From the NCBI GenBank assembly GCA_023266195.1, contig JAHFRP010000003.1:186001-250000 (forward strand): DNA of 64,000 nucleotides, read 5' to 3'. A program made the position numbers and the translations under genes. This document shows, one piece after another, positions 43,347-49,286 of the stretch. The notes beneath the pieces were generated by a model. That model did no database searches. It was not told the origin of the DNA and saw nothing but the letters and a program-made list of their open reading frames with translations. Position 1 is the first letter of the stretch. Each line of letters opens with the position of its first letter. Source of the stretch: Sulfuricella sp. (GTDB taxonomy: Bacteria > Pseudomonadota > Gammaproteobacteria > Burkholderiales > Sulfuricellaceae).

Positions 43347-44117
43347 ATGAAGGCCGTGATTCTTGCGGGGGGGATGGGAACGCGGATCAGCGAAGAAACC
43401 GCCCTTCGCCCCAAGCCCATGATCGAGATTGGCGGCAAGCCCGTCTTGTGGCACATCATGAAGATCTACGCCGCTCACGGCATCAACGATTTCATCGTCT
43501 GCTGCGGCCACAAGGGTTACGTCATCAAGGAATACTTCGCCAATTATTTCCTGCACATGTCTGACGTCACGTTCGACATGCAGCACAACCGGATGGCGGT
43601 GCACCAGAACAGCGCAGAACCGTGGAAAGTCACGCTGATCGATACCGGCGAGAGCACCATGACCGGCGGGCGGCTGAAACGGGTGCGGGACTATCTCGGC
43701 GATGAGGATTTCTGTTTTACTTATGGCGACGGAGTCAGCGATGTGAACATCACGTCGGCCATAGATTTTCATCGACAGCAAAAACGATTGGCCACGCTGA
43801 CCGGTGTGCAGCCGCCCGGCCGTTTCGGCGCCCTGAATCTGGAAGGCGATCGGGTGGCCAGCTTCGAAGAGAAGCCGCACGGCGACGGTGCATGGATCAA
43901 CGGCGGCTTCTTTGTCTTGTCGCCCGAAGTCATCGATCTGATCGCCGACGACAGCACCGTCTGGGAACACGGCCCGATGGAAAAATTGGCGCACGACGGC
44001 CAGCTTTCGGCTTATCTGCATTCCGGCTTCTGGCAACCGATGGATACGCTGCGCGATAAAAACCATTTGGAAGAATTGTGGCAATCCGGCAAGGCGCCGT
44101 GGAAGGTATGGCCGTGA
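43347..44117 (+). CDS. rfbF: Glucose-1-phosphate cytidylyltransferase
   Basis: 256-aa nucleotidyltransferase making CDP-glucose. [20 protein letters not shown] and [20 protein letters not shown] are specific to RfbF/AscA/Ddh[19 protein letters not shown] and [21 protein letters not shown] stretches follow. RBS AGAAGGGA precedes ATG 43347. First of the CDP-dideoxyhexose set rfbF-rfbG-rfbH. Confidence 0.95.
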
Positions 44118-45178
44118 ATCCCGCTTTCTGGCACGGCAAAAAGGTCTTTCTCACCGGGCACACCGGCTTCAAGGGAAGCTGGCTCAGCCTGTGGTTGCAA
44201 CAGCTCGGCGCAGAAGTGACGGGCTATGCGCTGGCGCCGCCGACCAATCCCAGCCTGTTCGAGGTAGCGAACGTCGCGCAAGGCATGAAGTCCATCCTCG
44301 GCGACATCCGCGATGGCGCGGCGCTGGCGAAGGCGATGCGCGAAGCTGCGCCGGACATCGTCGTCCACATGGCGGCACAGCCGCTGGTGCGCCGTTCCTA
44401 TGCCGATCCGGTCGAGACTTATTCCACCAACGTGATGGGCACGGTACATTTGCTGGAAGCGGTCCGCCAGGCGAAATCGGTGCGCGCCGTGGTCAACGTC
44501 ACCAGCGACAAGTGTTACGAGAACAGGGAATGGGTCTGGGGCTACCGCGAGAGCGAGCCCATGGGCGGCTTCGACCCCTACAGCAGCAGCAAGGGCTGCG
44601 CCGAACTGGTGGCCGCGGCGTACCGCAACTCGTTCTTCAATCCGGCAAAACACGGCGAACATCGGATCGCGCTCGCCTCGGTGCGTGCCGGCAACGTCAT
44701 CGGCGGCGGCGACTGGGCGGAGGATAGATTGATCCCCGACATCCTGCGCGCCATCGAAGAAGGCCGCCCCGTCGTGATCCGCAATCCGCACGCCATCCGC
44801 CCCTGGCAGCACGTGCTGGAACCGCTCGGCGGCTACTTGCGGCTCGCGCAAAAACTGGTTGAGGACGGCACCGCCTATGGCGAAGGCTGGAACTTCGGCC
44901 CCAACGACGAGGACGCCCAGCCGGTGCAATGGATCGTCGAACGGCTTACCCGGCAATGGGGGAACGACGCAAGCTGGCAGCTCGACCGGGCGGACCACCC
45001 GCACGAAGCGCATTACCTCAAGCTGGATTGCTCCAAGGCCAAGGCGCGCCTCGATTGGCAACCGCGCTGGAATCTGGCGCGTGCCCTGGAAATGATCGTC
45101 GCGTGGCAACGCGCCTACCTCGCGCAGCAAGACATGCGCGAAGTCACATTGGAACAGATCAAGAACTTCACCCCATGA
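44114..45178 (+). CDS. rfbG: CDP-glucose 4,6-dehydratase
   Basis: 354-aa SDR giving CDP-4-keto-6-deoxyglucose. [20 protein letters not shown] is the NAD loop; [39 protein letters not shown] (Tyr, Lys) and [19 protein letters not shown] are RfbG-specific. GTG 44114 is chosen: GGAAGG ends 7 bases before it and it overlaps the rfbF stop (GTGA); ATG 44108 lies too close to the RBS. It overlaps rfbH by ATGA at 45175. Confidence 0.95.
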
Positions 45179-47546: not shown

Positions 47547-47552
47547 CGCACC

Positions 47553-49286
47553 GTGAAAGCCTCCGACGCCGTCGCCAAATTCCTCGCCGCGCACCAGGTC
47601 CACTATTGCTTCGAACTGGTGGGCGGGATGATCACGCACCTGTTGGACAGCCTTGCGCAAGACGGTCGCTTCAACATCATCTCCATGCATCACGAGCAAT
47701 CCGCCGCATTTGCGGCGGAGGGTGTCGCACGGCAGGCAATGGGCCGGCAGATCGCGGTGGCGATGGGCACCAGCGGCCCCGGCGCAACCAACCTGATTAC
47801 CGGCATCGGCAGTTGCTGGTTCGACTCCGTCCCCTGTCTGTTCATCACCGGGCAGGTGAACACCCACGAGCTGAAGGGCGTGCGCGCGGTACGGCAGCAG
47901 GGCTTCCAGGAACTCGACATCATCCCGATGGTGGCTTCGATCACCAAACATGCTGCGCAGGTAACCGACCCGGAGAAACTGCTGCCGGAACTGCATCGCG
48001 CCTTGTCGGCGGCGCTTTCCGGACGCCAGGGCCCGGCCCTGATCGACATCCCGAACGATGTGCAGCGCATGGATATTCCCGATGCGCTGGTCGAAGAATG
48101 GGTCCGCAAGCCCTTGCAGCCGGACGACTCGCCGCCGGTTGACGAGACCTGGCTTGCTGCTCTGTCCGAACTTTGCCGCGCCTCCCTCCGGCCGCTGATC
48201 TGCCTCGGCGGCGGCGCGCGCTGGGCACCCTCGATGGCGGCCTGGGTGGCGGCGCTGGAAGAAATGGGCATCCCCTATGTTTCGACGCTGATGGGCCACG
48301 AACGCATCGTCGCGGGCGCACATTACTTCAACATGGTCGGCAGCTACGGCAATCGCGAAGCCAACTGGGCGGTGCAGAATTGCGATCTGCTGATCGTGAT
48401 CGGCGCCCGCCTCGATGTGCGCCAGACCGGCGCAGACATCGACGACTTTGCACGCCACGCCAGGGTCGTGCAGATCGACATCGACCCCGCCCAGCTGAAC
48501 AACCGCATCCACGCCGATCTGTCGATCCGGAGCGATGCCGAGTCTTTTTTCCGCCGCTTCAGGATCGATGGCACCACTTTTTGCGCCCAATCCTCCGACT
48601 GGACGGCGCAGCTCGTTGCGCTGAAAACCCGTTCCGCCGCGGATGAATATGCGGATTGGGAAATCAGCCCCGGCACGTTGTTCGGGCTGCTCAACGAGGC
48701 GATGACGGGCAGGCCGGTGGATTATGTCTGCGATGTCGGCAATCACCAGATGTGGGCCGCACAAAGTCTGCGGCTGGAGAAGAATCAGGCGGCACACTAT
48801 AGCGGCGGCATGGGCGCGATGGGATTTGCCCTGCCTGCCGCGCTGGGAATCGCCCTCAGCGCCGGCCACAAAACCATCGTCATCACCGGCGACGGCAGCC
48901 TGCAGATCAACATCCAGGAACTGGACACTCTGCAGCGCCAGCAATTGGATGTCGCCGTCATCGTAATGAACAATCACTCGCTGGGAATGGTGAAGAATTT
49001 TCAGGACATGTATTTCGACGGCAGGAACCAGTCCACCAAGGAAGGGTACAGCTGCCCCTCCTTCACCGATCTGGCGCGAGCTTATGGGATCAGCAGCCTC
49101 TATGTTTCGAGCCGGGCCGAATTGGCCAAGGCCATCGAAGAGATCGCTCGGGCGACGGGGCCGGTCTTGCTGGAAGTGGCGATGCCCTACGCAACGGAAT
49201 GTCGCCCCCGCCTGGCCTTCGGCAAAAAGCTGGATGAGCAGTTTCCATACATCGAGCGATATATGATGGTCGCCTCGAAGAGATGA
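47553..49286 (+). CDS. Thiamine diphosphate enzyme, acetolactate synthase-like (YerE-like by context)
   Basis: 577-aa ThDP enzyme with the three-domain acetohydroxyacid synthase layout. N-terminal Glu activator in SMHHEQSAAFAAEGVARQ, MGTSGPGATNLITGIGSCWF, a middle domain with VGSYGNREANWAVQNCDLLI and IGARLDVRQTG, and the C-terminal ThDP motif GDGSLQINIQELDTL ending in NNHSLGM. Located right after rfbF-rfbG-rfbH and an SDR, it matches the place of YerE, which adds a two-carbon unit from pyruvate to C4 of the CDP-4-keto-3,6-dideoxy sugar. A plain ilvB role is unlikely: no small subunit and a glycan neighbourhood. GTG start with weak RBS. Confidence 0.78.
   Translation: MKASDAVAKFLAAHQVHYCFELVGGMITHLLDSLAQDGRFNIISMHHEQSAAFAAEGVARQAMGRQIAVAMGTSGPGATNLITGIGSCWFDSVPCLFITGQVNTHELKGVRAVRQQGFQELDIIPMVASITKHAAQVTDPEKLLPELHRALSAALSGRQGPALIDIPNDVQRMDIPDALVEEWVRKPLQPDDSPPVDETWLAALSELCRASLRPLICLGGGARWAPSMAAWVAALEEMGIPYVSTLMGHERIVAGAHYFNMVGSYGNREANWAVQNCDLLIVIGARLDVRQTGADIDDFARHARVVQIDIDPAQLNNRIHADLSIRSDAESFFRRFRIDGTTFCAQSSDWTAQLVALKTRSAADEYADWEISPGTLFGLLNEAMTGRPVDYVCDVGNHQMWAAQSLRLEKNQAAHYSGGMGAMGFALPAALGIALSAGHKTIVITGDGSLQINIQELDTLQRQQLDVAVIVMNNHSLGMVKNFQDMYFDGRNQSTKEGYSCPSFTDLARAYGISSLYVSSRAELAKAIEEIARATGPVLLEVAMPYATECRPRLAFGKKLDEQFPYIERYMMVASKR

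Follow-up and report, generated by a model that had tools for sequence, protein, structure and literature searches.

What finishes the branch of a branched-chain sugar when the usual enzyme for that step is missing is the question raised by a locus of Sulfuricella sp., contained in a stretch of 64,000 nucleotides (contig JAHFRP010000003.1, positions 186,001 to 250,000; hereafter the window). The yersiniose A pathway of Yersinia and Pseudomonas comprises ddhA-D, yerE and yerF. The operon in the window resembles it in the order rfbF-rfbG-rfbH and in a YerE-type thiamine diphosphate (ThDP) enzyme, but is without DdhD and YerF and carries a gene for a long short-chain dehydrogenase/reductase (SDR) upstream of the ThDP gene. 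We read it as encoding the synthesis of a yersiniose-like octose (3,6-dideoxy, 4-C-branched), with the long SDR in the place of YerF, a reading to which we assign a probability of about 0.7.

In this scheme, in which the individual reactions, the donor, the product and where the latter sits on the cell are all predictions from sequence, RfbF would form cytidine diphosphate (CDP)-glucose, RfbG would convert it to CDP-4-keto-6-deoxyglucose, and RfbH, together with an E3 reductase encoded elsewhere, would yield CDP-4-keto-3,6-dideoxyglucose. The YerE-type enzyme would decarboxylate pyruvate and add the two-carbon unit to C-4, and the long SDR would reduce the acetyl carbonyl in YerF's stead, leaving the new CHOH in either configuration or finishing the branch in some other way. 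The branched sugar would probably be used together with colitose in a surface glycan.

A YerE-type enzyme in a CDP-sugar operon

All five genes of the operon are intact and lie in a single row on the + strand (Table 1). The pairs rfbF/rfbG, rfbG/rfbH and rfbH/SDR overlap, and 6 bases separate the SDR gene from the ThDP gene, confirming the head-to-tail packing and the coordinates given in a preliminary description of the locus. RfbH retains a cysteine cluster (an 11-residue stretch) and, by motif reading, has His where Lys would be expected, both features expected of E1. Relatives of the ThDP enzyme were compared in the best 80 of 193 related stretches, to which all locus counts below refer; the compared loci span at most 20 kb each, and some are incomplete. 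Since homologues of rfbF, rfbG and rfbH accompany the ThDP enzyme in 71 of these 80 loci, the arrangement is not a product of chance. In L007, which like L028 apparently belongs to a genome of the window's genus (identical contig positions), the five operon genes are 83-92% identical to those of the window.

The best match to the ThDP enzyme among all solved structures is 5ahk, labelled acetolactate synthase II, which we take to be PpYerE of Pseudomonas protegens; it aligns over the full length at 593 bits, and chains of acetohydroxyacid synthase (AHAS) score about 260. The ThDP-enzyme motifs are readily found, with Glu48 within HHEQ, GDG at 446-448 and RLDVRQTG at 286-293, so the intact ThDP motif and catalytic Glu noted earlier are present. 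The catalytic Glu, GDG and RxDxR residues are common to the window enzyme and PpYerE, and we place the RxDxR residues at the flavin adenine dinucleotide (FAD) by analogy with AHAS structures; the FAD-region comparison proposed in the preliminary description thus also finds agreement with YerE. The two proteins are 50% identical. A solved structure of PpYerE is reported in PMC12247030.

In a quick tree of 87 proteins, with Shimodaira-Hasegawa-like approximate likelihood ratio (SH-aLRT) support only and a program warning of long branches, the window enzyme falls on one branch with 68 other rows, including PpYerE and the Yersinia and Pseudomonas enzymes, at 100% support. Outside this branch lie the IlvB of the same genome, two more of its paralogues and an erwiniose-type enzyme. 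Columns fixed or nearly fixed in the 68 YerE rows, such as QQGFQE, QMW, RQTG and Phe483, are kept in the window enzyme; IlvB departs from them at several sites and has Trp in the Phe483 column. The AHAS large-subunit model TIGR00118 gives the window enzyme 417 bits, under its cut-off of 538. True IlvB is encoded on contig C15, immediately followed by IlvN, and no AHAS small subunit lies beside the window ThDP gene, the sole over-cut-off match in the genome being the one that follows IlvB on C15. The enzyme is 50-53% identical to those of the Yersinia and Pseudomonas simiae YerE loci, and a search of its order at 1e-130 found it in three of 250 genomes, its own included. On the strength of the nearest structure, the tree, the conserved residues and the separate IlvB-IlvN pair, the window ThDP enzyme is of the YerE type, and an identity as IlvB or AHAS is rejected. 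The preliminary description, which had called the enzyme YerE-like, proposed a phylogeny against YerE and IlvB and seen no small subunit, is borne out on each of these points, and the clustering with IlvB that it named as a refutation did not occur; its premise that the three rfb enzymes feed YerE also holds, in that the operon is predicted to make the right CDP-sugar acceptor.

The operon contains no E3 reductase DdhD, a gap that the preliminary description did not note; all homologues in the genome are encoded on contigs other than the window's. The best candidate partner for RfbH is the product of G000:C13:125704-126732, 41% identical to a Yersinia DdhD, whose gene is flanked by genes for heme synthesis and thiol redox, as judged from the translations of these neighbours. 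At 1e-60 it has a homologue in 11 of the genus's 12 genomes, and in 10 of the 12, its own included, identity is at least 76%. A DdhD-type reductase is encoded in 28 of the 80 YerE loci and in none of the 37 whose ThDP enzyme is at least 59% identical to that of the window, several of which are incomplete. All ten YerE hosts that were searched have a DdhD-type match: in L039, L059, L065 and L070 it is inside the YerE locus, and the other six, which lack it there, have a homologue at 61-94%, that of the L071 host being partial.

The long SDR and its relatives

YerF, to which the preliminary description had given the final reduction, is absent beside the window ThDP gene, and the SDR is no orthologue of it. 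A BLAST alignment with Y. similis YerF extends over only about 160 residues at 25-26% identity (19% over the full alignment), and aligned identity to the YerF rows is 17-21%. Ten YerF rows form one clade with full support and the window SDR belongs to a separate clade, so that its identification as YerF is rejected. Its relatives are found at 89% identity in L007 (a Sulfuricella metagenome-assembled genome, MAG), 69% in L009 (a Sideroxydans MAG), 42% in L071 and 35% in L039, and in all five loci, the window included, the gene sits between rfbH and the ThDP gene.

The predicted structure of the window SDR (mean predicted local distance difference test score, pLDDT, 92) has as its highest-Z solved fold the NADP-dependent CDP-glucitol reductase of Campylobacter jejuni (8v4g/8v4h), with a Z of 38.2 over 320 residues and the next fold at 33.7. 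Among the 60 sequence matches listed, 8v4g is the sole one to start before profile position 18, and the likeness includes the N-terminal helix; the two enzymes would differ in substrate and are 23% identical, and a shared fold alone shows no function. The window SDR and YerF have the SSGAxYG/YxxxK active site in common. When a predicted structure of YerF (pLDDT 88) was searched with Foldseek, CDP-tyvelose 2-epimerase came first and the CDP-glucitol reductase ninth, a result that does not separate the two SDRs.

Relatives of the SDR are also encoded next to other ThDP enzymes, of a type that might branch sugars. In L098 (4245-7008) and L110 (3719-6512) they stand beside a two-gene transketolase-like enzyme and CDP-sugar genes, a possible pathway to a glycolyl-branched CDP-sugar, and in L112 beside a ThDP enzyme that groups with the erwiniose-type one. 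Because most of these sites would share a fresh carbonyl on the branch, we propose that the window SDR reduces the branch carbonyl, performing YerF's task as a non-orthologous enzyme.

Proposed exchange of the finishing enzyme and the probable nature of the product

When profiles of both reductase classes were run over the 80 loci, 48 contained YerF, 19 a long SDR, none both and 13 neither; about 11 loci with both would be expected under independence (hypergeometric 3e-10, for loci that are related and hence not independent). One of the 19, L083, is similar to uridine diphosphate (UDP)-glucuronate decarboxylase (UXS) by motif and lies 9 kb from the ThDP gene; leaving it out lowers the number to 18 of 80. 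YerF follows the ThDP gene directly in 47 of its 48 loci. Besides the long SDRs of L007, L009, L071 and L039 there are 15 more, about 30% identical, whose genes immediately follow the ThDP gene in nine cases, immediately precede it in one and are more distant in five. With L083 and the 13 loci of neither type left aside, the ThDP tree requires no fewer than 13 switches of reductase type among YerF and three groups of long SDRs, and two of these are between YerF and the window's group alone. One such replacement is seen in Pseudomonas, where L054 (10001-16549) and L070 (10001-16553), each encoding two ThDP enzymes, are 94% identical over 11 kb and then diverge, one continuing with YerF and the other with a long SDR and an FkbM methyltransferase.

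A further finishing enzyme is suggested by Trinickia L008 and Paraburkholderia L018 (8013-9800 in each), where the gene between rfbH and the YerE-type gene encodes a fusion of a GNAT domain and a DegT aminotransferase that has Lys in its pyridoxal phosphate (PLP) motif. Other loci have a reductase in this slot; the L018 stretch ends after the ThDP gene. On the ThDP tree a five-row group (support 86, not starred) unites these two loci with L007, L009 and the window, and the fusion suggests an amino-branched sugar. These observations lead us to propose, tentatively and at somewhat less than even odds, that the branching step is fixed and the finishing of the branch exchangeable (YerF, three groups of long SDRs, the GNAT-aminotransferase fusion), that the octose of the window is other than yersiniose A, for example its side-chain epimer yersiniose B, and that the Trinickia and Paraburkholderia kin make amino-branched sugars. 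Yersinia itself is silent on the link between long SDRs and yersiniose B, neither supporting nor refuting it, since full-length YerE is found at 1e-120 in six of 25 genomes of the genus and YerF follows in all six. Y. similis YerF shares only 39% identity with the remaining five, and the difference between yersiniose A and B could also lie within YerF. One of the Yersinia genomes has, besides its intact copy, a second, partial YerE-like stretch with two internal stops (L119, G829:C1:3191877-3192878). In the literature consulted on yersiniose, erwiniose, YerE-like enzymes, branched-chain sugars and CDP-glucitol we found no alternative to YerF, although an in silico survey of more than 200 YerE-like enzymes, cited in PMC12247030, may hold one.

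Several observations weigh against assigning YerF's role to the window SDR or against the scheme built on it. By sequence, UXS scores above 8v4g (97 versus 70 bits; 237 versus 198 with a profile), and a Psychrobacter oxidoreductase/decarboxylase comes first when Foldseek matches are ranked by E-value. Where 8v4g has Met-Glu-Ile the window SDR has Gly-Ala-Ala, and with Glu in the reductase and Ala in the window protein this motif does not settle the chemistry. Among 369 genomes of the class, three of the five others with SDR relatives (L099, L100 and L101) show nothing that matches the window ThDP enzyme within the stretch examined around the SDR gene, transketolase-like genes having been sought by eye in part of L099 only. 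The position of the SDR gene upstream of the ThDP gene would also fit an enzyme acting on an earlier intermediate, and support for the long-SDR clade that holds the window protein is weak (80/89). That YerF and long SDRs exclude each other was counted in loci of 20 kb or less, some of them incomplete, and 13 of the 80 have neither. The E3 candidate is only 41% identical to a Yersinia DdhD, and reductases of this kind serve many partners.

The preliminary description expected a yersiniose-like branched octose. The YerE-type branching pathway stands on tree, structure and residues, and the claim to yersiniose as product is weakened because the finishing enzyme comes from another family; what is finally made may be a variant of yersiniose or an isomer of it. 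That the operon nevertheless makes plain yersiniose A, the long SDR yielding exactly YerF's product, would agree with the mutual exclusion of the two reductases, with their shared active-site motif and with the gmd-colC-colD genes that the window has in common with Y. similis L060, where they lie near the yersiniose genes. We consider it unlikely, as the SDR is not orthologous to YerF and the repeated changes of reductase type are easier to understand if the products differ, which is an argument and not a proof. Improbable, too, is a direct reduction of the 4-keto group by the SDR, as in abequose or paratose synthesis, with the ThDP enzyme branching part of the pool and the operon serving two sugars. 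The SDR gene does sit between rfbH and the ThDP gene, and the intermediate could be shared, but two SDRs found near rfbH without a ThDP match (L108 and L109, of abequose/paratose type by context) are short and 15% identical to that of the window, making it unlikely that the latter is such a reductase, and 19 of the 80 loci have a long SDR together with a YerE-type gene.

The donor could in principle be a longer or hydroxylated keto acid, giving a larger branch, and YerE-like enzymes of this sort exist: according to PMC12247030, YpYerE prefers pyruvate and ErwE longer hydroxy keto acids. A cluster that we take by gene content to be of the erwiniose type (L111, from a genome in the family of Leminorella) encodes DdhD, RfbF, RfbG, RfbH, an HpcH-type aldolase, a ThDP enzyme, YerF, acetaldehyde dehydrogenase and a DmpG-type aldolase. 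It resembles the window in combining CDP-dideoxy sugar genes with a ThDP branching enzyme, but differs in having YerF, the two aldolases and the dehydrogenase, and its ThDP enzyme, 32% identical to that of the window, falls outside the YerE clade. For the window enzyme pyruvate is the likely donor, given 50% identity to PpYerE, 32% to the erwiniose-type enzyme and the lack of an aldolase in those neighbouring genes of the window that were searched; an ErwE-type donor is improbable, the window enzyme lying within the YerE clade. Least probable is a second AHAS or other decarboxylase with no sugar made, for which the matches to AHAS large-subunit models speak, all of them below cut-off among the 25 listed, but which runs counter to the PpYerE structure, the tree and residues, the IlvB-IlvN pair elsewhere and the rfbF, rfbG and rfbH homologues beside 71 of 80 relatives.

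Glycan setting and significance

Directly upstream of the rfbF operon are genes of the guanosine diphosphate (GDP)-colitose type, to which the preliminary description makes no reference, and glycosyltransferase genes lie downstream (Table 1).

Table 1. Genes of the operon and of its glycan neighbourhood in the window
Gene or product	Coordinates	Strand	Basis
manC, mannose-1-phosphate guanylyltransferase (GDP-mannose supply)	37840..39258	+	named from translation; homologues in related loci
gmd, GDP-mannose 4,6-dehydratase homologue	40106..41212	+	translation, context; 85-92% to corresponding gene of several YerE loci
colC-like SDR, GDP-fucose-synthase family	41239..42171	+	NF047922 310 bits, below Fcl cut-off 500
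colD, PLP-dependent GDP-4-keto-6-deoxymannose 3-dehydratase	42168..43334	+	ColD structures 2gms/3gr9 542/536 bits
rfbF (ddhA), glucose-1-phosphate cytidylyltransferase	43347..44117	+	TIGR02623 482 bits, cut-off 300
rfbG (ddhB), CDP-glucose 4,6-dehydratase	44108..45178	+	TIGR02622 537 bits, cut-off 278
rfbH (ddhC, E1), PLP/[2Fe-2S] CDP-4-keto-6-deoxyglucose 3-dehydratase	45175..46509	+	NF011936 768 bits, cut-off 423
Long SDR, 345 aa, proposed acyl-branch reductase in YerF's place	46509..47546	+	PF01370
YerE-type ThDP carboligase, GTG start	47553..49286	+	5ahk 593 bits, 50% identity; tree; residue comparison
Glycosyltransferase, family 2-like	49411..50154	+	NCBIfam glycosyltransferase matches, below cut-offs
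Glycosyltransferase family 10, fucosyltransferase-like	55255..56271	+	PF00852 47 bits, cut-off 24

The order gmd-colC-colD and the ColD score agree with the GDP-L-colitose pathway (manC, gmd, colD, colC); the next-best structure for ColD, a CDP-sugar E1, scores 193 bits, and its motif SHHISTMEGG has His instead of Lys at the PLP site. The ColC of the window is putative, being placed by family and context. Genes for gmd and colD (both at least 55% identical) occur together in 12 of the 80 YerE loci, that of Y. similis among them, and the colC-like SDR is matched at 54-82% in 11 of the 12 and at 33% in the twelfth; no match to ColD is listed for the close relative L007. The pairing of colitose with yersiniose has a structural precedent in the Y. 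pseudotuberculosis O:6 unit, which has terminal colitose and in which yersiniose A is also present (PMC6436433); yersiniose A is reported in serotypes O6 and O12 (PMC8533242), and homologues of ddhA-D, yerE and yerF in Pseudomonas WCS417 (PMC4509608). The family 10 protein is a candidate colitosyltransferase.

Other genes of the neighbourhood may also serve the glycan. TviC-like (by translation) and TviB-like genes for a UDP-sugar epimerase and dehydrogenase (35309-37729, -), divergent from manC, point to a further supply of sugar acid. A DltB-like O-acyltransferase and a 328-aa partner (56324-58838, -) are encoded next to the glycan genes, possibly for O-acylation of a polymer, and a HipA-family protein (HipA_C and Couple_hipA domains; 59961-61184, -) is encoded between the glycan genes and msbA.

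YerE-type loci also occur in MAGs of bacteria that oxidise sulfur, iron or methane, organisms from which we know of no glycan of the yersiniose kind, although no search was aimed at this point. Yersiniose A and B are set apart by a stereospecific ketoreduction, which PMC4753412 described as uncharacterised as of 2016. The window and its relatives, including the L054/L070 pair, provide candidate enzymes of different families that swap beside the same branching enzyme, and these make the question directly testable with few proteins.

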